The notes beneath the pieces were generated by a model. It did not search any database and was not told where the DNA came from. It saw nothing but the letters and a program-made list of their open reading frames with translations. Of a stretch of 64,000 bases of DNA, positions 51,015-64,000 are shown in pieces. How positions within the stretch are numbered: position 1 is the first letter of the stretch; every line of letters begins with the position of its first letter. The position numbers and the translations under genes were made by a program. This stretch comes from Elizabethkingia miricola (GTDB taxonomy: Bacteria > Bacteroidota > Bacteroidia > Flavobacteriales > Weeksellaceae): the NCBI RefSeq assembly GCF_001675285.1, contig NZ_LSGQ01000001.1, positions 434,001 through 498,000 on the forward strand. The letters run 5' to 3'.

Positions 51015-54000
51015 CTATACTTCTTTTATTTTTAGAAATGCATTATCCTGAACCAGTATTCCTTTCTCAATTGATTCCTGGACACTAATTAATAGAGATT
51101 TTTTAAGATCTTCAGTGAGCCTTGAGAATCCTAAAAGTTTTACTAATAAAGCAACAGCATTTTCTGGTTGAATAGCAATAGCATCTTTTACAATTTTCTC
51201 CAAACCTGAATAAATTTCTTCAGGGGCTATATAATTAATCTTTCTGGAATTACCCGGAAGATTACTACGGTTTCTAACAACTACCTCTTTTTTTTCATTA
51301 TGCCATAGGAATTCTCCTCTTTTCTCAATAAGACCTATTTGCTGTGCATAATCTGTTGCTTGCTCAAGAGATGCTCTGACCCTACTTCCTACTTTTGAAA
51401 TTCCATTAGCCTCTGCCATTCTTCTTGCCATTTCATCAAAATGAACAGGACCTTCCACAAAAACAATATCAGAAATCCATTTTCCTAAATTCCCCTGTGA
51501 ATGTAAATGCATTTCCATTTTTGCAATATCTGTTGGTAATTCTGCAATTTGATACAGAGGTGCCTTTTCATAAATAACCTCTTCTTTCTTAGCCTCTCGA
51601 ACTAATTCTTCAAGCTCCTGATTCATTTCTTCTTCTATAATATCGTCTTGCTGTAACTGTGCTTTAGAATGTTCAATAGCACTGATAATAAGATCTAATT
51701 CTTTTTGTGGATTTCTAAACCAGTCAATACTCCATACATTATGGAGTTTCCACCCCATAGCCTCTAAAACTTCTTTACGCAGTCTATCCCTATCTCTTGC
51801 TGATTTTGCTGAAGCATAAGATTTTCCATCACAATTGATCCCCAAAATATATCTTCCCGGATGATCTGGGTCTACTACTGCTAAATCAATATAGTAACCA
51901 GCACTTCCTACTTTTTGTCTAACAATATATCCCTTAGCCTCAAGGCTTTTACTCACAAGCTCCTCAAAAGGTCTATGTACCGTTTCTATCCTTTGATGAT
52001 CCATTTCGAATTTACCATACTGGGCATAGTATAAAAAGCTCTTAAGAGCTCTTATGCCGAACTTAGCATTTGGACCGGGATTAATCTCTTCTGAGGTAAT
52101 ATTAGTGAAGACCTCACAGCGACTCTTAGCTCTTGTTATAAGAACATTTAATCTACGTTCTCCACCTTCATTATTTAATGGACCAAAATTCATGGTAAGA
52201 TTACCTTCCAATGTTCTGCCATAACCAATACTAATAAAAATGACATCCCTCTCATCTCCCTGAACATTTTCTAAGTTCTTCACAAAGAAAGGTTCGCTAG
52301 AATGATTTCTAAAGAAATCTTCAATATCAGGATTCAAACGTCGTCTTATCTCCATTGCTGTATTAATAGCTTGCATTTGCGAAGTACTAAAAGCAACTAC
52401 ACCTAAACTTTGTTTTGGATATTTTCTGGCATGTTCAACAACAGCGTCTGCAACATATTCAGCTTCTTTGATATTTGCTCTTGTTTTTCCTTTATCATAA
52501 TAGGTATCTGGTAAGTGATGGAAGAATAAGCCCATGCGGTGCTTAGAACCTGGACTTGGGAAAATAACTAATTTATTCTCATAAAATTCCTGATTAGACA
52601 GACTAATTAAAGATTCATGACGGCTTCTGTAATGCCATTGTAACATCGTTTGACAGGCTCCCTGAGCATCACACATCCCTAAAATGCTTAGCATATCAGC
52701 AGTTACATTATCCTCCTCCTCAAGATCTGTATTGAGTTTATCAAAGAAGCTTGTAGGTGGCATTTGTTTAGTATCACCAACCACGACAATTTGCTTTCCT
52801 CTCAAGATAGCCCCCAAAGCATCTACAGGTCTTACCTGACTTGCTTCATCAAATATGACCAAATCAAAATTAATACTATCTGGTGGTAAGAAATTGGCAA
52901 TAGACATCGGACTCATCATAATAACTGGCTTAATAGCTTGAATAGCAAGTCCAGCTTCAGTCATTAATTTACGAATTGGCATATGTCTGGCCTTACGATT
53001 AAACTCTCCACGAAGCACATTTATCTGTCCTCCCCCATCTATTTTAGGTAAGTTTTCAAAATGCTTTAAGGCTATTAAGGCTCTGTTGTAGTGCTGATTT
53101 AGAACATCCAGATGCCCAAACTTTGCGATAATTTCTTCATGACTAGACCTTTCAAACTTTCTGAGCTCACTACTATTAATAAGTATATTTTCTAAAAGCT
53201 GATCATACCATGATTTTTGAAGTGCAATTTTAAGGTAAGCGTTAGCATCAGACCAGTTAACAGAAGCCTCTATTAAGTATCCGGCATTCTGAGCTTCCAT
53301 ATTTTCTTTTAATACGTTCCACTGAATAACTTTATGCAGTTCCGGAAGTCTGTTTCTCCACTCTTGTAGCTTTAAGGATTGATCTCCATAGTTTAAAGTA
53401 TCAAATTCTCCTTTAAACTTAATCCTCTCAAGCAATGACTCATTGTTCTCCTTTCTATCTTTATAAAGTTTTATAAGCTTCTCTTGAAAATCCTTAGCTA
53501 TATCTGTAGAACTATTTGTTTTAAGGTAGCTAATAAATCCATTTGGTACTGTGTTAGTTTGAAGTCCTTTATGAACAGTGGAAAGATAATTTGCTACAGT
53601 TTCAATCTCCTGCCAATTAGTTGAGTTTCCTTTCCAATGACTACCTAAAAGTCTACTCAGTAAATCTTTAGAAGAATCCAAGTCATTGGAAAGCCTTTTG
53701 GCTTCCATAATTGCATTTACATATTCCAGCTTTTTCTCCAGGTTTCCAGGCATTGGAGAAGTCAGGAGCCCAGCTAATTGATTAACACTTCTTTTATAAT
53801 CTCCTATTAAAAACTTATACCATTTTGACCCGTGGGCTATTAAATTCTGCCTGATAGGTAAAACATCATAATTCCAAGCTTCAGCAATAAAATGGTCCTG
53901 ATAGTTATCATAGATTTCACTAAGTCTTTTTCCAACTTTACAGGCATCTGTAATCTTTTCCTTATCATCTACCCATGCATCATCCTCAACAGAAAAACCT

Positions 54001-55667
54001 GAAAGACCTGGATTCCTCTTAGCTAAATCTAAAAGATCTATAGATTTTTGCAATTCAACATCATTGTTTGGGATATCGGTGAAAACGTGCTCGCTGATTT
54101 CCTTACTAAGCAATTGGAATTCCTCATCTAATTGTCCAATTTCTTCCAACTTGCTTTTTAAAACCTCTTCTTCACTAGGAATAAGCAGATTGAGTTCTGT
54201 TCCATAGAAAAGTAATTTTTCCGGCTCTCCAATGGAAGAAAGCCGAGCTTGTACCTGTTCAGCTAAAATTTCAGCTTCTTTTATTTTGCTTGGACTCCAT
54301 GAAAGAAAGCCTTCAGGCTGAATCTTAGGAAATTTATAATCCTTATAATCATTAGCAATCTTTAGTAAATTACCAATAATCTCCTGAGGGGAATGCCCAC
54401 TATTTTGAATCTCTGTATTAATTACTTCGCAATAATTATTAAGCTCTTCTATAAGTGGAGTAAGCATCCCAATCTCATTTTCCAGATGCTGTAAAGTAGG
54501 CTTTCCAAGATCCAATACTTTCTTTAATTCCTCATGCACAGATTTCTTATTGGCCTTATGGCTATGAAGTTCCAGGCAGGCAATGCCTAAGTGGATATTA
54601 TCCAACCTTCTCTTTACAACTTCCAAGGCCGCCATTTTTTCCGCTACAAAAAGTATCTTTTTACCCTTACCTATTGCATCTGCAATAATATTGGCGATTG
54701 TTTGAGATTTTCCAGTGCCAGGAGGCCCCTGAATAACCATATGCCGTCCCTCATTAACCCCCAGCATAGCTATAGCCTGCGAACTATCGGCATCCACAAC
54801 CATCGAAAGGTTCGATATTTTAGGTTCTTTATCTAAGGATTGGCTCTCTATTCTAAGAGGTTCTTGATCGAAGCCTTTGGTAAATAAAGCTTTAATAACT
54901 TCATGATCATAAGGTTTTCGATCTCCAGGCCATTTCGAAGCATCTAAGTCATGATAAATCATAAACTTTCCGAATGAGAAAAAACCGAGCTCAATGATAT
55001 CCTCCTCTACTTCCCAATTAGATTGATGACTAACACGCTGCTTAATATCATGAAAATATCCATCAACATCAATTTCATTATGCTCTTCAAGATTAGGAAT
55101 TGTGATATTAAACTCTGCAAGCATTTTAGCTTGTAGAGAAAGGTTTGTTCCAATATCAGCTCCTGAATATCGTAAGCTAAAGCGTTCACTGGCGCTGGAT
55201 CTTTCAAGAGAGACAGGAATAAGAATTAATGGTGCATACCTTGGCTCTTCAGTATTCCCTTTTTCATACCATTTTAGCATTCCTAAAGCCAAATACAGAA
55301 TATTAACCCCCTGCTCCTCAAGACTTGTTCTTGCAAAGTAATAAGTATTAAGAATTTTAGTCTGAAGCTTTTGTTCTTTTTCATTGGTTTGAAGCTTTGT
55401 ATCATTATAAGCATCTTGTAATTCTGGCTCCGATAATTCTGGAAGTTCATAAATGGTATCTTCATCATCATCTTTACCCGGACGCCCTAAAAAAGTCATT
55501 GCTTTATTACCTCGTACGAGTATATCAAAAATATTAGTTGATTTTTCCTGTACAATATGAAGTCCTCTGGCTGAGGATATTTTATAATTAAGCAAAGTAT
55601 TACGCATTCCCAAGTCAAGTAATTCTTTCCTTGATGCTTCTAGTTTTGATATTATTTCTTCTTGCAT
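51015..55667 (-). CDS. Giant DUF4011-type SF1 helicase with Vsr-like nuclease domain
   Basis: 1550 residues. Order: DUF4011-type N-terminal region (SRKELLDLGMRNTLLNYK..), SF1 helicase half with Walker A QGPPGTGKSQT (about 312-322), a long helical insertion (about 420-880), Walker B/motif II FDEASQVRP (about 940), C-terminal RecA-like half with LNVLITRAKSRCEVF (about 1172), a Vsr/PD-D/ExK-like nuclease (about 1236-1325; YYIDLAVVDPD, GINCDGKSY), and a DUF3320-like winged helix near the end. The family is abundant in defence islands and is thought to act on invading nucleic acid. Upstream on the same strand, 41 bases away, is an AbiJ-like gene, so the two may form one defence unit. Confidence 0.85.
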   Translation of the reverse strand: MQEEIISKLEASRKELLDLGMRNTLLNYKISSARGLHIVQEKSTNIFDILVRGNKAMTFLGRPGKDDDEDTIYELPELSEPELQDAYNDTKLQTNEKEQKLQTKILNTYYFARTSLEEQGVNILYLALGMLKWYEKGNTEEPRYAPLILIPVSLERSSASERFSLRYSGADIGTNLSLQAKMLAEFNITIPNLEEHNEIDVDGYFHDIKQRVSHQSNWEVEEDIIELGFFSFGKFMIYHDLDASKWPGDRKPYDHEVIKALFTKGFDQEPLRIESQSLDKEPKISNLSMVVDADSSQAIAMLGVNEGRHMVIQGPPGTGKSQTIANIIADAIGKGKKILFVAEKMAALEVVKRRLDNIHLGIACLELHSHKANKKSVHEELKKVLDLGKPTLQHLENEIGMLTPLIEELNNYCEVINTEIQNSGHSPQEIIGNLLKIANDYKDYKFPKIQPEGFLSWSPSKIKEAEILAEQVQARLSSIGEPEKLLFYGTELNLLIPSEEEVLKSKLEEIGQLDEEFQLLSKEISEHVFTDIPNNDVELQKSIDLLDLAKRNPGLSGFSVEDDAWVDDKEKITDACKVGKRLSEIYDNYQDHFIAEAWNYDVLPIRQNLIAHGSKWYKFLIGDYKRSVNQLAGLLTSPMPGNLEKKLEYVNAIMEAKRLSNDLDSSKDLLSRLLGSHWKGNSTNWQEIETVANYLSTVHKGLQTNTVPNGFISYLKTNSSTDIAKDFQEKLIKLYKDRKENNESLLERIKFKGEFDTLNYGDQSLKLQEWRNRLPELHKVIQWNVLKENMEAQNAGYLIEASVNWSDANAYLKIALQKSWYDQLLENILINSSELRKFERSSHEEIIAKFGHLDVLNQHYNRALIALKHFENLPKIDGGGQINVLRGEFNRKARHMPIRKLMTEAGLAIQAIKPVIMMSPMSIANFLPPDSINFDLVIFDEASQVRPVDALGAILRGKQIVVVGDTKQMPPTSFFDKLNTDLEEEDNVTADMLSILGMCDAQGACQTMLQWHYRSRHESLISLSNQEFYENKLVIFPSPGSKHRMGLFFHHLPDTYYDKGKTRANIKEAEYVADAVVEHARKYPKQSLGVVAFSTSQMQAINTAMEIRRRLNPDIEDFFRNHSSEPFFVKNLENVQGDERDVIFISIGYGRTLEGNLTMNFGPLNNEGGERRLNVLITRAKSRCEVFTNITSEEINPGPNAKFGIRALKSFLYYAQYGKFEMDHQRIETVHRPFEELVSKSLEAKGYIVRQKVGSAGYYIDLAVVDPDHPGRYILGINCDGKSYASAKSARDRDRLRKEVLEAMGWKLHNVWSIDWFRNPQKELDLIISAIEHSKAQLQQDDIIEEEMNQELEELVREAKKEEVIYEKAPLYQIAELPTDIAKMEMHLHSQGNLGKWISDIVFVEGPVHFDEMARRMAEANGISKVGSRVRASLEQATDYAQQIGLIEKRGEFLWHNEKKEVVVRNRSNLPGNSRKINYIAPEEIYSGLEKIVKDAIAIQPENAVALLVKLLGFSRLTEDLKKSLLISVQESIEKGILVQDNAFLKIKEV

Positions 55668-55708
55668 ATCTAATTATTAGTTTTTATACACTGCTACTAA
55701 CAGTATAA

Positions 55709-56413
55709 CTATTTAATTCTTGAAATAAACTTCATGAATGAACTGGTCATTTCAAAAATAATTTCAATTTCATTCTCTACAACTGCGTCATTATGTTTTA
55801 CGTAGGTATTTTGGTACTGACAATAATAATCAACAAGTTTTATAAACATATTAATAAGTTCTTTAGAAACCTGTTTTTCTTTAATATATGCACTAATTAA
55901 AGGAATTTGATTTTCAAGAGATTTTTTATTATTTAAAATTCCTTTCAGAAGTAACTCTAAAGAAAGTCGTAAATCATCCAGAATATTTCTTTCAAAAATC
56001 TGGTTATCAAACTTTTTAAGCGCCTCAGTATATACTTTTAAACTCTCAGGATAATCCGATAGCCAATGTCTTACTTCATGGATAAGGATTTCATTAATTT
56101 CCTGTCCCAAATTTCCATAACGGGATAGTAACTTAATCTTCAAATCCCTCACATCAGAATTAGATTTAAAATGCTCCAATTCACATAAGTCTTTAAGAAT
56201 AATAAACTGTTGATCTGGGGAAAAAGCCTTTAAGTTTTCTTTTAGAGCCGTTCTTTTATTAGGACTGTCAAACGGATATTCGCCAAAGGGTATATTAACA
56301 TTATACTGCACGGCATATTCTGAGAAAAGTTCCGCTATTTTAGGTCCGGTTAATCCAGTGTTTGTATCACCTAGAAGATCACCGGCATGGCTAATAAATG
56401 TAATTGGTATCAC
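55709..56413 (-). CDS. AbiJ/HEPN-like abortive-infection protein
   Basis: 234 residues. The N-terminal third (KRTALKENLKAFSPDQQFII, ILKDLCELEHF) resembles the AbiJ N-terminal domains. The C-terminal half is all-helical (LRLSLELLLKGILNNKKSLENQ) as in HEPN or toxin-type domains, but the RxxxxH RNase motif is not evident. It lies directly upstream of the giant helicase on the same strand. It may sense or restrict phage together with it; the assignment is from weak similarity and position. Confidence 0.5.
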   Translation of the reverse strand: MIPITFISHAGDLLGDTNTGLTGPKIAELFSEYAVQYNVNIPFGEYPFDSPNKRTALKENLKAFSPDQQFIILKDLCELEHFKSNSDVRDLKIKLLSRYGNLGQEINEILIHEVRHWLSDYPESLKVYTEALKKFDNQIFERNILDDLRLSLELLLKGILNNKKSLENQIPLISAYIKEKQVSKELINMFIKLVDYYCQYQNTYVKHNDAVVENEIEIIFEMTSSFMKFISRIK

Positions 56414-56564
56414 AATCTTATAATTTATAAATTGAATACATAAATACTATTTTTTAGAAAAAAATATATTATTAATTACATCAAATATAAAAAATTGAAG
56501 AAAATAAAAAAAAAGGAAAACCGTAAAATCTATTTGTTTATAGTATCCATAATTATATAAAGTG

Positions 56565-56592
56565 AAATTACGAGATAGTATCTCGTAATTTT
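56565..56592. terminator. Hairpin downstream of the XRE gene
   Basis: AAATTACGAGA (56565-56575) pairs exactly with TCTCGTAATTT (56581-56591), loop TAGTA. The 309-base stretch 56414-56722 contains only this AT-rich hairpin. It could end the minus-strand XRE transcript, though the T-run is short. Confidence 0.6.
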
Positions 56593-56722
56593 ATTCTTCG
56601 CTAGAAATCACAGGTCGTGTTTAGGAGTTTAAAATTACCTATTAATAAAATTCTTGATTGTCTTTTAAAACAAATAAGACAAGTTTAAAAATAGTTTCAT
56701 CTCAAAATTACTTCAGAAACTT

Positions 56723-56980
56723 TTATTCATCTAGTTCGGAATAATATTCTTCAAAATCAAATATGATTTCAAACAACTCTTTTGGATGTATTCTAAGCCC
56801 TGTGGCAATTTCAATAAAAGTACTGAGTTGACAATCAATTTTATTATTAGCTACATCACTAATTCTAGCCGCAGTAGTATTACATTTTTCTGCGATCTTT
56901 GAATATGGAGTCTGTCCTTTTATTTCTTTAATTCTTTCTGCTACCATTCTTTTGATTTCAGCTGTCTTAAATTCATTCAT
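56723..56980 (-). CDS. XRE-family HTH regulator
   Basis: 85 residues with an XRE HTH spanning about 18-60 (TPYSKIAEKCNTTAARISDV.. then DCQLSTFIEIATGLRIHPKE) and an acidic C-terminus. It is divergent from the sigma/dCas12f locus. A perfect 18-bp palindrome sits 46 bases upstream, over a plus-strand promoter, and is its likely operator. It may therefore control the RNA and the sigma-dCas12f genes to the right. Confidence 0.85.
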   Translation of the reverse strand: MNEFKTAEIKRMVAERIKEIKGQTPYSKIAEKCNTTAARISDVANNKIDCQLSTFIEIATGLRIHPKELFEIIFDFEEYYSELDE

Positions 56981-57025
56981 AATCGCACTGTTTAGTGCAA
57001 ATTGGGACTAATGAAAGAAATATTC

Positions 57026-57066
57026 ATTACCGAATTCGGTAATATAAAGTATTTTACTTATATTTG
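57026..57066 (+). promoter_or_regulatory. Promoter overlapped by an 18-bp palindromic operator
   Basis: ATTACCGAATTCGGTAAT (57026-57043) is a perfect palindrome. It covers the weak -33 (TTCG, 57035) of a plus-strand promoter whose -7 is TATATTTG (57059-57066). A repressor bound here, most likely the adjacent XRE protein, would block transcription that starts near 57072 towards the structured RNA and the sigma gene. Confidence 0.7.
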
Positions 57067-57137
57067 CTATATAAGTTACAATAGCAGTAACTTTGCGATA
57101 CTTCAACGATAATATAGAAGCTATTGCTTAGAATCTT

Positions 57138-57250
57138 GTATTAGAAAACTGCCAATTTTCAAAAGGAAACGAGATGATAAGTAAGAGGCTCATGACCTAG
57201 GCATGAGTCCACTTATCTTGTTTCCAGGTATGGCAGTACCTCTAATACAG
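57138..57250 (+). ncRNA. 113-base highly structured RNA, unknown
   Basis: Nested pairings form one long hairpin: TGTATTAGA (57138) with TCTAATACA (57242), ACTGCCA (57149) with TGGCAGT (57232), GGAAACGAGATGATAAGT (57166) with ACTTATCTTGTTTCC (57212), and apical CTCATG (57190) with CATGAG (57203). It lies about 65 bases after a good promoter and 400 before the sigma gene. The remaining stretch to 57647 has smaller hairpins: ATTGTATC/GATACAAT at about 57321-57347, and CAGTATTT/AAATACTG plus TTCTAAA/TTTAGAA at 57546-57597. It may be a leader element or an independent RNA; it does not resemble a CRISPR repeat or the downstream guide-like RNA. Confidence 0.6.
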
Positions 57251-57647
57251 ATAATGTTGGATCTCATGCCATTTTATTTTCGGTATTCTCCACATTTAAG
57301 CAAATTTTCAAAATTAATATTGTATCGCTTCGTATGACAGATACAATGGGTTGTACAACCATTGCGGGAGCAATCCTTTCACGTGAAATCCTTATCATCT
57401 TATTAACCAGTTTTTTTGCACTTAACAAGGAAAAATATAACTATAATACCTTTTCCTTCCAGAGCAAAAATGACAAACAATGCTTATAAATCTAACCTCA
57501 AATTAAAAACAAGCTTATTATTCTGGATTTACTGAATATATGGTGCAGTATTTACCTAAAAGGATCTTCTAAAATGGAAGAGCTTTAGAAAATACTGAAG
57601 ATAAAATTAAGACCCTTCTAGCAATAATCTAGCTAAATACACTGCTT

Positions 57648-58463
57648 ATGAAAAGAACAAACTCTTTGCCCCGGAAACTGACTGATCATCAACTATATGA
57701 ACTACTGAAGATAGGCAATCCGACCTCTTTAGAACATATTCATTTACGCTACAAAAGACTACTTTTCTGGCTCGCAAGACGAATGATTGAAGATGATTTT
57801 GTAGTGGAAACGCTTGTACAGGATACATTTCTTAAACTATGGTTACACCGTGATTCCATTGAAACTCCAAATCATATTCTTGGCTTTTTACGCTTTGTTT
57901 TGAAGAGAGATTGCATATCCTATTTTAATTCTCCAAAAAGTAAATTCACTCGGTTAATTAATTCCCTTGAACGCTATGAAAATTACGAGGATTATCTTGT
58001 TAGTTGCGATCCCTTGAAAGATGAAGAGTATCTTCTCAGTCAGGAATCTGATCAAAGAAATTTTGATGAAGTTCAAAAAGGTTTAGATGTAATAAGCCCC
58101 AAAAGAAAACATCTCATTAAGCTCTGTCTTGAATATGGCTTTCAATATAAACCCATTGCAGAGGCAATGGGAAGCAGTGTAACAGCCATAAGCAATGAGA
58201 TAAGCAGAGCCATAGATGATCTTCGGAAAATAATTAAAGGAAGTTCCTTTGAAAAGGCAAAGGAAAAAGCTTCTGATCATAAGGAGAAAGTAGAAGAACT
58301 CAGTAGCCAGCAGCTCGAGATTTTAAAAAAAAGGATGGAAGAAAAATCTTCTTTCAAGATTATTGCTCAGGAGCTCAAACTTTCTGAAAAGCAGGTCCAC
58401 CTGGAATTTCTACAGGCTTATAGTTACATTGAAAATCAAAAGATCTCTGTAATACCTCTTTGA
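57648..58463 (+). CDS. ECF-type RNA polymerase sigma factor with C-terminal extension, partner of dCas12f
   Basis: 271 residues. Region 2 covers about 31-96 (LLFWLARRMIEDDFVVETLV, QDTFLKLWLHRDSIETPNHI, the -10-binding and core-binding part). Region 4 covers about 146-196 (KRKHLIKLCLEYGFQYKPIA, EAMGSSVTAISNEISRAIDD). Ordinary ECF factors end there; this one adds ~75 residues with a lysine-rich linker and a second HTH-like segment (FKIIAQELKLSEKQVHLEFL). The stop (TGA at 58461-58463) is one base before the ATG of the Cas12f homologue, so the two are translationally coupled. No anti-sigma gene is adjacent. The extension may dock dCas12f; that is inference. Confidence 0.88.
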   Translation: MKRTNSLPRKLTDHQLYELLKIGNPTSLEHIHLRYKRLLFWLARRMIEDDFVVETLVQDTFLKLWLHRDSIETPNHILGFLRFVLKRDCISYFNSPKSKFTRLINSLERYENYEDYLVSCDPLKDEEYLLSQESDQRNFDEVQKGLDVISPKRKHLIKLCLEYGFQYKPIAEAMGSSVTAISNEISRAIDDLRKIIKGSSFEKAKEKASDHKEKVEELSSQQLEILKKRMEEKSSFKIIAQELKLSEKQVHLEFLQAYSYIENQKISVIPL

Positions 58464-58464
58464 C

Positions 58465-59559
58465 ATGGAAAAATCTACGATTACTCTTACCCGAAGAATT
58501 CAGTTACTTATTGATCTTCCTTCAAATGAAAAAAACGAGATATGGGAAAAACTCTACTGTTATCAGAACCGATGTTTCCGAGCTGCTAATCTAATTGCTT
58601 CTCATCTGTATGTTCAGGAAATGATTAAGGATTTCTTCTATCTGACAGAAGAAATCCAGTATAAGCTGGCTGATGTAAACAAAGACCCAATGGGAATATT
58701 TAACCGTTCGAAAACAAACACAACGGCGCGCATGGTCTTCGACCGGTTCAAAGGAGAAATTCCTACTGATATTCTGGGATGTCTGAACAATACTATTCAA
58801 GCTGTATTTTCTAAGGAAAAAGCAGACTACTGGCAGGGTTTAAAATCCTTGAAGAATTTTAAGAAAGATATTCCTATTCCACTTCCAGTTAAATGCATCA
58901 ACAAAATGAGGTATGATCCTGAAAAGAAAGCATTTTGTTTCAACATGTTTGCTATTCCTGTTAAAACCTATTTAGGGAGGGATTACACTGATAAGCGCCT
59001 GATAATGGAGCGTCTTTTAAGAGGAGAAATAAAGCTTTGCACATCCCAGATCCAGCTTAAAGATAGGAAAATATACTGGCTTGCTGCATTTGAATTTGAA
59101 AAAGACGAGCATGTTTTAAAACCTGAAATCATTGCAGAAGCTTCTCTATCTCTGGAACATCCTATCGTAGCAAAAACGGGTAATATTCGAATCAATATTG
59201 GTTCGAAAGAAGAGTTTTTATACCGTAGGCTCGCAATCCAGGCAAGTCAAAGAAGGATTCAGGATGGCATCAGCTATGCACGCTCAGGAAAAGGAGCCAA
59301 ACGCAAACAAAAGGTACTTTATAGAACAGAAAATTTGGAGAGCCGGTACGTAAGTCACAGGCTTCATGTATACAGTAAGAAGCTTATTGATTTCTGCATT
59401 CAACAACAGGCAGGTACACTTATTCTTAAAAACCAGGAAGATAAGATTGGTATTGCAAAAGAACAGGAATTTGTACTTCGTAACTGGAGTTATTATGAAT
59501 TGCAGACCAAAATACAATACAAGGCAGAAAAAGCAGGTATCGAATTAATCATTGGATAG
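58465..59559 (+). CDS. Nuclease-dead Cas12f homologue (dCas12f), sigma-associated
   Basis: 364 residues. The C-terminal third reads like Cas12f/TnpB RuvC: NIGSKEEFLYRRLAIQASQ (244-262), a KGAKRKQK basic loop (276-283), SHRLHVYSKKLIDF (297-310), TLILKNQED (318-326) and LRNWSYYELQTKIQYKAEKA (338-357). The RuvC-I DLG motif expected before residue 244 is replaced by HPIVAKTGNIRI. The RuvC-II Glu position reads Lys322, and the chain stops at IELIIG, before the RuvC-III Asp and CxxC zinc finger. So RNA-guided DNA binding may remain but cleavage should not. It is cotranscribed with the sigma factor; a guide-like RNA segment follows directly. Confidence 0.87.
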   Translation: MEKSTITLTRRIQLLIDLPSNEKNEIWEKLYCYQNRCFRAANLIASHLYVQEMIKDFFYLTEEIQYKLADVNKDPMGIFNRSKTNTTARMVFDRFKGEIPTDILGCLNNTIQAVFSKEKADYWQGLKSLKNFKKDIPIPLPVKCINKMRYDPEKKAFCFNMFAIPVKTYLGRDYTDKRLIMERLLRGEIKLCTSQIQLKDRKIYWLAAFEFEKDEHVLKPEIIAEASLSLEHPIVAKTGNIRINIGSKEEFLYRRLAIQASQRRIQDGISYARSGKGAKRKQKVLYRTENLESRYVSHRLHVYSKKLIDFCIQQQAGTLILKNQEDKIGIAKEQEFVLRNWSYYELQTKIQYKAEKAGIELIIG

Positions 59560-59569
59560 CTAAAAAAAA

Positions 59570-59660
59570 ATAACGAGGGTGCTTGTACACCCATAGGGTG
59601 AGGTCATGAACACTCACTAAATACTTTAGGAGTATATACAACGGCGTGGGCTTCTTTTTT
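59570..59660 (+). ncRNA. Candidate guide RNA of dCas12f
   Basis: Right after the dCas12f stop come three hairpins: GGGTG/CACCC (59577-59581 with 59588-59592), GTGAG/CTCAC (59598-59602 with 59613-59617) and ATACT/AGTAT (59621-59625 with 59631-59635). The scaffold ends in ATACAAC (59636-59642), like the CAAC end of Cas12f repeats and TnpB omega RNAs. Then comes GGCGTGGGCTTC (59643-59654), much more GC-rich than its surroundings, and a T6 run (59655-59660). The order scaffold-guide-T-run fits a single-guide RNA with a 12-18 nt guide. The 5' end is not known and may overlap the gene. No target match was found by eye in this window. Confidence 0.65.
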
Positions 59661-59834
59661 ATTTAAAAATTAATTGTAAATATTGCTGTATATGTCAACA
59701 GCCAAAGTTATGTAAGGACTACTTAATATACCTATAAAGGTCTTTGAGTACAAGTAAAACTAATTACTAATGTATTTACTGATATTAATATTTTTGTATT
59801 TAAAGGGGTAGATCTGTATATTAATAAATGAATA

Positions 59835-60028
59835 ATTTTTATTGTATGTTATTGTATCATTACGTAAGTACGTACTTACGTAATTACGCTAGTTATCTCA
59901 TATTCAGATGTTTATATTTTTAGACTGAGTTAAGTCGTATTTTAATCTATTTAAAGCCTCCGGCAGGACGAAGCAGCAACTTTGTTAGGAGGAACGACTT
60001 TCAAAGTTGCGAATGAGCTCCTAACTTC
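59835..60028. repeat. Right copy of long inverted repeat with 26-bp TACGTA palindrome
   Basis: 59950-60028 is the exact inverted copy of 43951-44029 (79 bases). The similarity continues outward to about 59835, where a 26-bp perfect palindrome (59859-59884, TACGTAAGTACG and its complement) matches the TACGTA-rich DNA at 44092-44140 of the left copy. The same interleaved stems (GTTAGGAG, GCAACTTT and complements) are present. Between 59660 and 59835 no gene or RNA is seen. Confidence 0.75.
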
Positions 60029-60056
60029 TTCGAGTAGTTGAAAAAATCACACATAT

Positions 60057-60443
60057 TTAAACAAGCAATAAAAATATTATTGTGACAAAATTTAAGGCAA
60101 AATTAATTTTGATAAAATACGTTTTATGTTGATCAATAGCATAGAAAGTGTAAAACGAAATCATAAACATTTTGTACGTAAGATTTATCTGAGCAAAGTC
60201 TACTGTTTTGTGCCCTTTTCCCTTAAAGAATAATACTCCAGCATCATCAAGTGAAGGAATTATTGTTTGTTGTATTAATATCGAATTGTCATCAGGTGAC
60301 AATCTGCTTAATTTTTCTTTAAATAAAAGCAAGGTTCCTGCAAATATGTTCCGCAGTGCCGAAGAAGCGCGTCGAGGATCTGTACTTTTGAAATCTTCAA
60401 GTCCAATCTGTATTGCTTCTATAGCATTGTTAAGCAAAGTCAT
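60057..60443 (-). pseudogene. Truncated HEPN-like gene at the repeat boundary
   Basis: 128 codons remain. The first ~88 (MTLLNNAIEAIQIGLEDF.., RRASSALRNIFAGTLLLFKEKLSRL in parts, GKGHKTVDFAQI) look like the start of a larger all-helical HEPN-like family found in defence islands. After about codon 88 (near 60180) the reading turns into unrelated hydrophobic sequence (FMISFYTFYAI.. NFVTIIFLLLV) up to a stop close to the right inverted repeat. The gene is therefore probably cut by an element end or deletion there. It is on the same strand as, and just after, the UvrD-like gene. Confidence 0.6.
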
Positions 60444-60543
60444 TGTGAGAGGTTTTTAGATTTACTAGAAAGTTATGAATTATTATATATAAAATTGCTG
60501 TGTTTACTACTAACTATAATAGATCTGAACAAATATTAAAATT

Positions 60544-62457
60544 TTATGATGATGAAGGTGTTAGATCAGTTTCTGTTCGTACTTCGCTACCATCAAAAAT
60601 ACTTACCTTTTTAATCTTTTCTACCGCTGTATTGACATCTGAAACAAACAATACTACAGCTAAATCTTTTAAAGAACGAGAACAGCATACATAAAATAAT
60701 CTCCTTGTCCTGGCTGGCGTACTGTCATTTCCTGCCTCTATATTTTCCTTGTCCCTATCTGAAAGCGGTACGATTCCGAGCAATTTTTCGTAAGAATAAC
60801 TATTCGAGTTACCCTCTTCATCGTCTAGGATTACAAGTACGCGCTCAAATTCAGCACCTTTAATACTGTGCTGTGTAGAATAAGGGGATTCATCATTTAT
60901 GTAAATCTGGTAGCCAAAAAATTGCTTCGCAGGCACATCAAAGAAACGAGATATTACTGCATTAGTAATTCCTGTAGCCTCATCAACCTCCGTCAATAAT
61001 TCGACTTCATTTCCAGCTAGCCTTTTAGATATCCGTTCATCCAATTCCATTAACTTGTGGTCTGTAAGATATTGAAATACTTGTTTTACAGTTGCAGTGT
61101 CTGACGACATTAGACCAACAAGACTCTCGACATGATTTTTTAACCCGGAAAGCAGTTCACTTGGCTCAATTGTTAAGTGCTTTAAATTATCTTTTTCCAA
61201 CTGAGGACAAAATATCCGTAATAACTCGATAACCTCAAAATGTTTGTTGTTCCCATGCGCTATAGCAACTGGAATGATAAATTTGATAAAGGGCTGTACA
61301 GCCCACAAAGTACCTTCTTTAAAACCTGCGCTTATGTTTTCGGTAGATCCGTCGTTAAAGGCTGCAAATAGGTCTCCAAATCTTAATCTCTTAGCAGCCA
61401 TTCTATGCTCCATGACGAGAATTTTTACATCGGCTTCTTTTTCTTCCGAAGTCCAGAGCTGATCATTATTTGTAATAGCAAGATACTGCCTTACCATTCG
61501 TATTTTCTCTTCACGATGATCATCTGATTCAAGCACAAATAATAAGCTTGACCCCGTCACAGCCTTCCATTCATCGTCTATTTTCTCTTGCCTGCCTCCA
61601 GTTTGTTGTAAATCATCACCTCCAATTCTTATCTTATTTATGATATTCAATACATCTGTTGAACATCTAAAATTTTCCGGCTTGGAAATCTGCATCCATC
61701 CGTCTTCCAACGTGATAGGACCAGCACCAGTCATGTAAATTTTTTGCATTGGATCACCAAAAAAACCGAGGCAGAATTTCTTAATATTTTTATCTACAGC
61801 TTTCATTGCACCAATGAAGTTTGGAACAGTGTCTTGACTCTCGTCAATAAAGAAATAAGGGTATTTTTCAGCTAGAACTGTTTGTAATAAGGAAGACGAA
61901 CTTATAAGTTCTGGTACCATTGCAATGATGTCATTGTGTCCTAAGATCCCTTCAAGATAGTTACTTCCTGTTTCGTAATTAAAGCCATCTACGTTTTGTA
62001 TTAATCCAGCCATTTCTTTGTACCTCTGAGTATCAGCTTGGTTCCTGTCTCTCGTTCTCTGTTGAACACGCGGCCCGAAAGCCTCAGCTGCATCTTCAAG
62101 CTCATTAATTTTAGATTGGATTTTATTAATAACCCACTTTTTAATATTTATCTGAAATGGTCTTATAAGTTCCCACAGGAAACTATGAATTGTCGATATG
62201 TGATATAAATAATCATGCCCAACGTCATCCAAAATTTCTTTTTCAGCTGTTGTTGTGTAGGTGATACATGCAATACGTTTGCCCTGTTGTCTAAGCATTT
62301 TACCTTCGTTTTCATCGATATATTTCAGTGCCTTTATTAATGAGGTAGTTTTTCCCGAGCCGGCTCCCGCTACTACAACGAAGCTTGTTTTATCCTTGAG
62401 ACACTTTTGTAACTCGATGTCGGCAGCGGTATTCGGTTTATTTATTCTCCTGCTCAT
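60544..62457 (-). CDS. UvrD-like helicase of an OLD/UvrD (Gabija-like) pair
   Basis: 637 residues. SF1A helicase motifs: Walker A GAGSGKTTS (31-39), TYTTTAEKEI (Ia), YFFIDESQDTVP (II, about 215-226), FGDPMQKIY (III), HSIKGAEFERVLVI (V) and RRLFYVCCSRS (VI). It follows an OLD-family nuclease with a 20-base overlap. This tandem is the class 2 OLD arrangement used by the Gabija anti-phage system (GajA nuclease/ATPase, GajB helicase). At 637 residues it is longer than typical GajB, so a relative of Gabija rather than the canonical system is possible. Confidence 0.8.
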   Translation of the reverse strand: MSRRINKPNTAADIELQKCLKDKTSFVVVAGAGSGKTTSLIKALKYIDENEGKMLRQQGKRIACITYTTTAEKEILDDVGHDYLYHISTIHSFLWELIRPFQINIKKWVINKIQSKINELEDAAEAFGPRVQQRTRDRNQADTQRYKEMAGLIQNVDGFNYETGSNYLEGILGHNDIIAMVPELISSSSLLQTVLAEKYPYFFIDESQDTVPNFIGAMKAVDKNIKKFCLGFFGDPMQKIYMTGAGPITLEDGWMQISKPENFRCSTDVLNIINKIRIGGDDLQQTGGRQEKIDDEWKAVTGSSLLFVLESDDHREEKIRMVRQYLAITNNDQLWTSEEKEADVKILVMEHRMAAKRLRFGDLFAAFNDGSTENISAGFKEGTLWAVQPFIKFIIPVAIAHGNNKHFEVIELLRIFCPQLEKDNLKHLTIEPSELLSGLKNHVESLVGLMSSDTATVKQVFQYLTDHKLMELDERISKRLAGNEVELLTEVDEATGITNAVISRFFDVPAKQFFGYQIYINDESPYSTQHSIKGAEFERVLVILDDEEGNSNSYSYEKLLGIVPLSDRDKENIEAGNDSTPARTRRLFYVCCSRSLKDLAVVLFVSDVNTAVEKIKKVSIFDGSEVRTETDLTPSSS

Positions 62458-64000
62458 CTGCTATTTCACTCTTTGGTTCTACTTCGGATTTACTCTCTGC
62501 AATTTCAAGTTCTTCTACAGGATCTAGCTCATCATCAACAAATGCGATTTTTTCCTTAAGCCATTCTAAACCTTTTTCAATATAATTTGGCACGTTCCAA
62601 CTTTCTGGATCTTTTAACATTAAACCCAGTGCAAAATCAGTTTTATTGAAAGATCCTCCATTAACTCTTTTGTATAACCTGATTCGGACTTCTTCCAATG
62701 TCCTTTTATTTTTAAGTGTTATAACTCGTAGTCCCAAATGTCTTTGTGCTATATCTTGCGTCCATTCCAGATTTGTCAATGCAAAACTTTCTTCTAAGGT
62801 TCGGCCTGCATAAGCACCTGACTCGCCATTCCATGATACTTCTGTTCTTGTTTGATAGGTAATCAATACATCAGCATTATTATCTGCACTTTTATTTTGA
62901 ATTTTACTTTCATTTGGTGCATCTAGCAATTCTCGTATGCCTCTGATTTTTGGAAGCCATTTTATAAGTGTTTGATTAGAAGTGACGGCACCTTCAAAAT
63001 CTGAAATGCATGATTTACCAGGTTTACTTAATATATCTTCATCATCTTCATCAATAATTTCTTGTTCATCCAAATTTGAATCGATTGTTGCTGCCACGGT
63101 CAAATCAGCTTCTACAAGGAGTTCGGTTGAACTAGTTGCATCCTTATCAGCACCTTCTAGTTTAGCAGAAACCGGCTCTATACTGTCTAGATCGGTAATG
63201 ATTAATGTTGTAAGACCTAAAAATTCAATCAATTGCTTAAAAATATGACCGTATGCACCACCAACCTCTATAATACTGAGGTAGCATGAATTCAACTCTT
63301 CAGCACATTTGTTGATCATAGGAGGAAGTAAAAGTCTTTCGACATTACCCTCAACCAGAATAGCACCGTCTGCGAAAAAGAGGTCACAATGCGTCAGCTT
63401 CATATAGCGCTGTAAAAATTCTCTACTTTCTTCATGTGATTTATTGTAGAATGTTGTGAGATTAAGAACATTTGTTGTTTGAACGCCTGTGTCTGCAATG
63501 TGTCGCTGGAAATATCGGATCGGTTGAAAACCGCTTTCATAAATAATGTGTGGTGAATGTGTAGTAACAATCATTTGATTCTTGAAGGTGTCCTCTGCCT
63601 CAGTTGGATTTATGATTTCCCAAACTTTTTTTATAAAAACCTGCTGTAACTGGGCATGAAGATGGGCTTCGGGCTCTTCGATGATAATTAAGTGAAGTGG
63701 TGCCCTAGCATCTTCCTCTTCCGACCAGCGGGCATGAAAATCCAGTATTTCAAGGATCATATAAATAAGGTTCTTAAAACCAAGTCCATTGTACCGGTCG
63801 GGTAGGGACAAGAAATCGTTACCGCCTCCAAGCGAGTAATGGAGTTTTGTCTGTCCAATTATACTTTCGTGATTGAGTGTTGCCCTAACTTCAAGTTTTG
63901 GATTACTAAATCCAGGATAACCTAATTTATTTAGACTTTGAAGAGTAGGATTAAATACTGTTTTTAAATGTTTCGTCAATTCGCTCTCTGATGTTGCAAG
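62438..64000 (-). CDS. OLD-family ATP-dependent nuclease (GajA-like), truncated by window edge
   Basis: About 520 residues are visible; the frame is open to the right edge, so the N-terminal P-loop is missing. Seen: ABC-type Walker B IIIEEPEAHLHAQLQ with signature-like region before it, D-loop/switch His in VTTHSPHIIYESG, then a TOPRIM domain (FADGAILVEGNVERLLLPPM, IIEVGGAYGH, LIITDLDSIEP). An acidic insert (DEQEIIDEDDEDIL) splits the TOPRIM region. OLD nucleases of this class cleave DNA when nucleotide levels fall during phage infection. The 3' end overlaps the UvrD-like gene, so they work as a pair. Confidence 0.82.
   Translation of the reverse strand, partial: LATSESELTKHLKTVFNPTLQSLNKLGYPGFSNPKLEVRATLNHESIIGQTKLHYSLGGGNDFLSLPDRYNGLGFKNLIYMILEILDFHARWSEEEDARAPLHLIIIEEPEAHLHAQLQQVFIKKVWEIINPTEAEDTFKNQMIVTTHSPHIIYESGFQPIRYFQRHIADTGVQTTNVLNLTTFYNKSHEESREFLQRYMKLTHCDLFFADGAILVEGNVERLLLPPMINKCAEELNSCYLSIIEVGGAYGHIFKQLIEFLGLTTLIITDLDSIEPVSAKLEGADKDATSSTELLVEADLTVAATIDSNLDEQEIIDEDDEDILSKPGKSCISDFEGAVTSNQTLIKWLPKIRGIRELLDAPNESKIQNKSADNNADVLITYQTRTEVSWNGESGAYAGRTLEESFALTNLEWTQDIAQRHLGLRVITLKNKRTLEEVRIRLYKRVNGGSFNKTDFALGLMLKDPESWNVPNYIEKGLEWLKEKIAFVDDELDPVEELEIAESKSEVEPKSEIADEQENK

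Follow-up and report, generated by a model that had tools for sequence, protein, structure and literature searches.

A nuclease-dead Cas12f (dCas12f) and an ECF-type sigma factor, encoded side by side with a guide RNA of their own, were identified in a stretch of Elizabethkingia miricola DNA of 64,000 nucleotides (hereinafter, the window), and it is likely that together they form an RNA-guided transcription activator. In relatives, the DNA addressed by the guide appears to lie in a switch-like leader upstream of operons for uptake receptors. Homology and the guide-to-leader matches found in relatives point to such RNA-guided recruitment. A more extended reading is put forward tentatively, as a possibility somewhat short of an even chance: in a family of dCas12f–sigma systems of Flavobacteriia, the near-fixed guide would be directed to the strand that acts as the switch in an attenuator leader not yet catalogued, and the complex would serve as a master activator of SusC-type operons gated by helix-turn-helix (HTH) proteins, initiating RNA past the 5' half of the terminator and so bypassing both the HTH protein and the attenuator, its own leader being spared by the base at position −1, by a mutated seed or by loss of the leader. 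The features of the window that are relevant here are as follows (coordinates, strand):

56723-56980 (−): divergent small ORF, 85 aa, putative Cro/C1-type HTH regulator (PF01381, E-value = 0.11, below cut-off)
57028-57041: palindrome TACCGAATTCGGTA, putative operator, its sequence differing between cassettes
57059-57066 (+): TATATTTG, putative Bacteroidetes-type −7 promoter element (TAnnTTTG motif)
57118-57280 (+): structured leader RNA core with a consensus structure (model R1, E-value = 2.9e-25, self-inclusive)
57200-57210 (+): leader strand equivalent to the guide address, diverged (GGCATGAGTCC in place of GGCGTGGGCTC)
57259-57280 (+): leader 3' element GGATCTCATGCC and T-rich tract, forming the distal half of a terminator-like helix (the alternative helix)
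57648-58463 (+): ECF-type sigma factor, 271 aa (Pfam, superfamily/TIGR and PDB matches), residues 217-251 forming a further HTH-like stretch
58465-59559 (+): nuclease-dead Cas12f, 364 aa (PDB alignment, PADLOC; Ser227, Lys322)
59575-59642 (+): guide RNA scaffold with three small hairpins and the 3' end ATATACAAC, conserved in relatives
59643-59660 (+): guide GGCGTGGGCTTC, then a T-run, near-constant in relatives

Identification of the protein pair and of related loci

The original prediction had placed a Cas12f-like ORF one base after an ECF sigma factor ORF; both were found in this arrangement, and the peptide motifs it had named are present in the translation of the Cas12f-like ORF. The ECF identity of the sigma factor was corroborated by a profile match to the sigma70-ECF superfamily (E-value = 2.9e-18) and by similarity to the PDB chain 9n9q_C, "RpoE" (2.2e-76, residues 17-262 of 271); the matches to TIGR02985 (1.2e-26) and, for residues 217-251, to GerE (Pfam, 0.0057) were below the cut-offs of the respective models. 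The product of 58465-59559 was identified as Cas12f by PADLOC (2.1e-49) and matched the PDB chain 9n9c_A, "Nuclease-deactivated Cas12f", over residues 1-364 of 364 (1.1e-158), with matches below cut-off to NCBIfam guided_TnpB (3.6e-16) and, weakly, to Pfam (0.043 and 0.058). In the alignment with the Cas12f effector 9nzo, Ser227 of dCas12f stands at the first RuvC Asp and Lys322 at the Glu, and the C-terminus lies about 90 residues short of the end of the aligned 9nzo chain. The RuvC catalytic residues are thus lost, and, given the early C-terminus, dCas12f is predicted to be without the third RuvC motif, at what we take to be the place of this motif in Cas12f. The dCas12f gene is present as a single copy in the window's own genome. 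A structure prediction from an alignment of 15 of the homologues (A3) reached a pLDDT of 53 and was set aside as unusable.

A scan of genome contigs yielded 62 related dCas12f loci, nearly all from Weeksellaceae by title; some genomes contained several loci (four in Chryseobacterium sp. ISL-6, namely, L002, L006, L013 and L042), and L055 is the locus of E. argenteiflava, with the leader in its genome at C569:17591-17748. The neighbourhood survey of homologues that the original prediction had proposed was run, and a related sigma factor gene lay directly upstream of dCas12f in the same orientation in 58 of the 63 loci (62 relatives and the window), so the pairing is not due to chance. The sigma–dCas12f pair, the loss of the nuclease and the Weeksellaceae setting hold in the light of PDB matches, the loci of relatives and the family genomes.

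This tight coupling, as well as the PDB entry 9n9q, which contains the dCas12f sequence plus an RpoE chain, argues against an RNA-guided repressor, in which the complex on the leader would block transcription and the sigma factor would be merely a binding or expression partner. Such an action would resemble that of TldR, a nuclease-dead TnpB repressor with a guide RNA (PMC13418256), and the site addressed follows closely on the leader promoter, so that RNA polymerase could be blocked by a complex bound there; repression is nevertheless considered improbable.

As had been claimed from the first reading, no CRISPR array was detected nearby (no array-like direct repeats of at least 20 nt in 54000-64000, where the sole repeat family of at least 20 nt consisted of two copies of 21 nt), and none of the six (Pfam) or seven (PADLOC) neighbouring ORFs scanned encoded Cas1, Cas2 or TnpA. 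The flanks vary between loci and include relaxase-, primase- and metal-efflux-like ORFs (by eye); in the scan of 80 representatives of the 117 nearest neighbours (PADLOC, Pfam), GajA-like proteins were found three times and resolvases twice, along with many single families. Since the flanking genes differ between loci, the cassette is found in varied, partly mobile surroundings; that of the window looks like an island passenger, and its targets may possibly be on other elements. A constant defence cargo was considered and rejected, the commonest PADLOC family and the commonest Pfam family each accounting for 5 of the 80 representatives. It should be noted that a Gabija-type pair adjoins the cassette in the window (60544-63979, − strand; GajB helicase, 1.1e-223, and GajA, 5.9e-187; PADLOC).

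Structure and distribution of the leader RNA

A leader was found by nhmmer between the divergent small ORF and the sigma gene in the window and in 49 of the 62 loci, and was not found in 13 of the 62, of which L061 and L062 are cut and therefore uninformative. The consensus of 18 leader sequences contained 37 pairs, 10 of them with compensatory change; the window's leader is one of these 18, and its E-value of 2.9e-25 in the R1 covariance model is therefore self-inclusive. The model gave 120 matches, of which only part was retrieved as sequence, and these were present in all 37 of 37 dCas12f genomes; in the window's own genome, the sole R1 copy is the cassette's own leader. Among 148 genomes of the family, R1 (E-value ≤ 1e-5) was found in 82 and dCas12f (E-value ≤ 1e-60) in 31; R1 was present in 29 of the 31 dCas12f-positive genomes and in 53 of the 117 dCas12f-negative ones. 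Since the leader is common in genomes without dCas12f, it has a function of its own, which counts against the activator reading. Rfam gave no meaningful match for the leader in the stretches searched, the single weak match of each search being off its strand or place. With the support of covariation, the leader is a predicted RNA family of its own.

The strand GGCGTGGGCTC forms part of the apical hairpin or, alternatively, pairs with GAGTTCCACGCC just before the T-rich tract. In the alignment of 18 sequences (A1), the alternative helix had 99.0% standard pairs and four pairs changed on both sides; neither the pairing figure nor the double-change figure was reached in any of 500 shuffles, and when the helix was slid by 1-3 columns, pairing fell to 39-64%. 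Compensatory changes were also present in the leader of the window, GGCATGAG with CTCATGCC. The two mutually exclusive helices, together with the T-rich tract, are read as a putative antiterminator and terminator.

The leader of the window has an extra 3' domain (57340-57391) that is common to SusC-type leaders and absent from the other aligned sigma leaders, which suggests leader exchange. A divergent leader subfamily (L205, L206, L217, L220-L222, L197, L202) is mostly without the HTH ORF and has varied genes downstream; most of its members keep GGCGTGGGCT and GTTCCACGCT.

Structure and composition of the guide RNA

The involvement of a guide RNA, proposed in the original prediction, is supported by a conserved scaffold and guide directly 3' of dCas12f, the RNA being predicted from sequence. 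The 3' flanks contained the scaffold pattern GAGGGTGCTTGTACACCC...GGTGAGGT...ACACTCACTAAAT...ATATACAAC, which started shortly after the dCas12f stop codon (about 230 bases past it in L057), and 19 scaffolds folded into three hairpins of 16 pairs, three of them with compensatory change. Guides were parsed in 62 of the 63 loci (that of L057 was read by eye; the scaffold of L015 was incomplete and yielded none), and in 58 of these 62 the guide started with GGCGTGGG, followed mostly by a T-run. Tandem guide RNAs were present in L022 and L038 (both from 7110), the last guide being GGCGTGGGCTCA and the others different; tandem guide RNAs with different guides after one dCas12f were also detected in L233, L234 and L237. 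In L022, a stretch resembling a decayed dCas12f end lies between the tandem guide RNAs (by eye), which suggests duplication and decay. The guide of L053 (Leeuwenhoekiella, from 7200), CCTTCCCTT, had no match in any leader of its genome; a second TATACAAC-GGACGTGGG stretch is located some tens of bases beyond the first.

Correspondence between guides and leaders

The guide copies the leader strand that is common to both exclusive helices. With the leader site taken as the place within a fixed stretch that best resembles GGCGTGGGCTC, a definition that favours finding a site, GGCGTGGG was present in 36 of 41 SusC leaders and in 35 of 48 sigma leaders (in 31 of the 35 after C), about 170 bp before the sigma gene in Weeksellaceae loci.

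Stronger evidence is that some guides that deviate from GGCGTGGG match the same site. The Mesonia guide (L057; GCGTGGGTTCTCTTATCT, 18 nt), from a locus whose sigma gene had no identifiable leader, matched only one place in 3.3 Mb with at most two mismatches besides the guide RNA itself, namely, the SusC leader L211 (one mismatch, 5' base G); one further place was found at three mismatches, and the reversed guide gave two places at up to three mismatches. In the genus g22, the loci L233, L234 and L237 have two tandem guide RNAs each, with the guides GCGTGGGTTCACTT and [AG]GCT[CT]ACTTATCGT, which correspond to one leader site but in two registers, each preceded by G and 5 bases apart in L260; 11 or 12 of the 14 bases match the leader, and of 300 shuffled guides only 0 to 8 scored as well. 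A G at the 5' side of the target is reportedly characteristic of the studied dCas12f–sigmaE system; this motif is present in Mesonia and in the three g22 loci; the window's clade has mostly A before GGCGTGGG, which counts against the activator reading unless the register is displaced by one base.

These deviating guides bear on two other explanations. The common guide GGCGTGGGCTC copies the 5' strand of the terminator and is complementary to its 3' element, as would be expected of an RNA-level antiterminator pairing in trans with the 3' terminator strand of the leader, with no DNA targeting; however, the Mesonia guide extends into CTCTTATCT and a g22 guide starts with AGCTCACTTATC, both matching the DNA site but for the most part unable to pair with the 3' element, and this explanation is regarded as highly improbable. 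There is hardly any likelihood that the conserved 3' end is part of the scaffold or a terminator rather than a guide, with its resemblance to the leader arising by chance or common descent: its near-constant sequence followed by a T-run and nine guides without a leader match agree with this, but the occurrence, in Mesonia and g22, of guides that match this leader site in shifted registers and of other sequences in the tandem guide RNAs of L022 and L038 does not. The nine guides in question (L053, L235, L236, L239-L243 and L249) had no match to any leader of their own genome. The g22 guides GCAAGGGCC, ATTTTTATTCC and GGGGGATTTTT (L235, L236, L239, L241-L244) were without a leader match, the genome of L244 being without a leader, and may address something else. 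The guides of L238 and L250 were GCGTGGGCTCACTT and GCGTGAGCTCACTT, and no R1 copy was found in either genome.

No intact leader target was found in the window's genome, in which the own leader is mutated and no other R1 copy is present; the best match of the guide in the own leader comprised 7 of 12 bases, a value reached by 124 of 200 shuffles. Three GGCGTGGGCT sites occur in this genome, one being the guide RNA itself. The other two 10-mer sites (one in the terminal part of an ndh-like gene, 75 bp upstream of a trmD-like gene, the other within a desaturase-like gene; gene names assigned by eye) were rejected as probably due to chance, since both are in coding sequence. A fixed chromosomal target with G followed by GGCGTGGGCT was likewise rejected: this sequence was not enriched in 36 genomes (11 matches versus 14 for the reversed control), and 6 of the 11 sites lie in leader copies. 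The bare 8-mer GGCGTGGG was found 216 times versus 182 for the control in ten genomes.

Proposed action and the base at position −1

In dCas12f–sigmaE systems, the dCas12f–guide RNA complex is said to open its target, and the sigma factor to bring RNA polymerase, with transcription starting at a set distance downstream. By analogy, the complex discussed here would bind leader DNA and deliver the sigma factor and RNA polymerase to the guide-matched site, and transcription would start between the halves of the leader's terminator, whose start positions in the window, 57200 and 57259, are separated by about 60 bases; the transcripts would pass the attenuator because the 5' half of the terminator would be missing from them. 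It is probable that the divergent HTH regulator gates the promoter of the leader itself by way of a palindrome private to each cassette.

Within the GGCGTGGG clade, most non-sigma leaders had A immediately before the site, whereas most sigma leaders had C. A purine at −1 combined with intact GGCGTGGG was found in 69 of 89 non-sigma leaders and in none of the 45 sigma leaders of the clade (48 minus L213, L216 and L256), a contrast that a one-base shift of register (TAM = first G) would abolish. Where this combination was absent, position −1 was a pyrimidine or the seed was mutated; the leader of the window, with A followed by GGCATGAG, is an example of the latter. Five g22 copies (L239, L241, L242, L243 and L245, all with A before GGCGTGGG), in which the sigma gene is 1.8-2.7 kb downstream, were counted as non-sigma, and without them the figure is 64 of 84; L239, L242 and L243 were labelled sigma in the tree count. 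These five copies combine A with an intact seed, but the guides do not match. In leaders from genomes without dCas12f, A was found in three of the four looked at (L264-L266), and T in L267. The sigma/non-sigma label changed eight times on the leader tree, compared with a mean of 38.9 and a minimum of 31 in 200 shuffles. Sparing of the own leader by the TAM would fit the purine contrast, on an assumed TAM rule, but the small number of origins of sigma leaders, the A in leaders of genomes without dCas12f, the five g22 copies and the possible shift of register all weigh against it. In view of the few origins, self-avoidance is put forward merely as a suggestion.

The same figures bear on autoregulation, in which the main target would be the cassette's own leader and a positive feedback switch would be opposed by the HTH protein. 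The retention of GGCGTGGG in 35 of 48 sigma leaders, at a short distance from the sigma gene, speaks for it; however, no leader was found in 13 of the 62 loci, and the lack, in the GGCGTGGG-guide clade, of any own leader with both a purine at −1 and an intact seed (0 of 45), compared with 69 of 89 non-sigma leaders, looks more like avoidance, with the reservation that sigma leaders arose only a few times and that the TAM rule is an assumption. Autoregulation as the main role is rated unlikely, and activation of other leaders by the complex is preferred.

Comparison with known systems

RNA-guided transcription activation by dCas12f–sigmaE pairs of Bacteroidetes has reportedly been described by the Sternberg laboratory (2025 preprint). 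The locus resembles the dCas12f–sigmaE system (PDB 9n9c, 9n9m, 9n9o, 9n9q) in that both proteins are homologous over most of their length, the RuvC is dead, the guide RNA is adjacent and the host belongs to Bacteroidota; the sigma–dCas12f pair thus belongs to a kind that is known, though only recently. The locus seems to differ from that system in its guide, near-constant over most of a family, in the divergent HTH ORF and structured leader before sigma, and in apparently targeting a class of leaders. The scaffold of CRISPR-Cas12f type V-F ends in a CAAC motif. The locus shares with type V-F the protein family and the 3' end of the scaffold, but differs in having no array in 54000-64000, no adaptation genes among the scanned neighbours, a dead nuclease and a near-constant guide; unlike IS200/IS605 TnpB, it has a dead RuvC. 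Both TldR (PMC13418256) and the dCas12f of the window are nuclease-dead TnpB/Cas12 relatives with a guide RNA acting on transcription, but TldR represses. TldR proteins are not known to have a sigma partner, another difference and a point against the repressor explanation. The leader resembles terminator/antiterminator leaders and riboswitches in its exclusive helices sharing one strand, its T-rich tract and its location upstream of operons; it differs from them in having no meaningful Rfam match in the stretches searched and in that the shared strand would at the same time direct an RNA-guided complex to its site.

As far as our searches reach, neither the leader family nor its putative address role was found described in the literature (bioRxiv preprints being outside the scope of the search) or in Rfam, and the leader regulon may be new. 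Natural RNA-guided sigma factors would thereby gain a concrete regulon and address. The findings suggest a way in which many operons could be governed by one near-fixed guide and in which an activator of this type might escape self-activation. Also brought to light is a structured RNA family that is supported by covariation and to which no Rfam model gave a meaningful match in the stretches searched.

Genes downstream of the leaders and divergent HTH ORFs

After removal of seven identical copies from 144, the leader set comprised 137 unique copies, and by blastx against a few references the downstream gene was sigma in 48, SusC in 41, TlpA-like in 9, response-regulator-like in 5 and unclassified in 34; L210 with L038, L214 with L036 and L274 with L016 are sigma copies counted twice (unequal slice length). 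Leader matches of fewer than 200 model positions were left out of the site, cassette and tree counts. The TlpA-like gene behind nine leaders corresponds in type to the gene located before SusC in L157, which brings the SusC-type total, TlpA-SusC included, to 50 of the 137 copies. Among the proteins behind leaders L154-L157, Pfam identified TonB-dependent receptors in four of four scanned and SusD in two of two scanned. Leaders before a response-regulator-like gene were noted in L158 (2140-2302, − strand), L191, L259, L261, L263 and L268; the same-strand ORFs of L158 resemble conjugation genes (by eye).

Among copies with at least 380 bases upstream, a complete divergent ORF of 60-190 aa was found in 49/49 sigma, 19/20 SusC, 7/7 TlpA-SusC, 9/16 other and 0/6 regulator copies (84 found), and eight of eight such ORFs picked from other loci gave an HTH Pfam match above a cut-off. 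A palindrome beating 95 of 100 shuffles was present in 32/49 sigma, 6/20 SusC, 1/7 TlpA-SusC, 3/16 other and 0/6 regulator copies; the operator idea is best supported for the sigma cassettes because the excess of palindromes is highest there. The motif TAnnTTTG, to which TATATTTG conforms and which we take to be the Bacteroidetes-type −7 element, was detected in 49/49 sigma and 17/20 SusC cassettes. In the window, the divergent HTH ORF is followed on the same strand by PDC-S37 and PDC-S32 (PADLOC candidate defence genes; 51015-56413, − strand), and for this reason it may head a defence operon.
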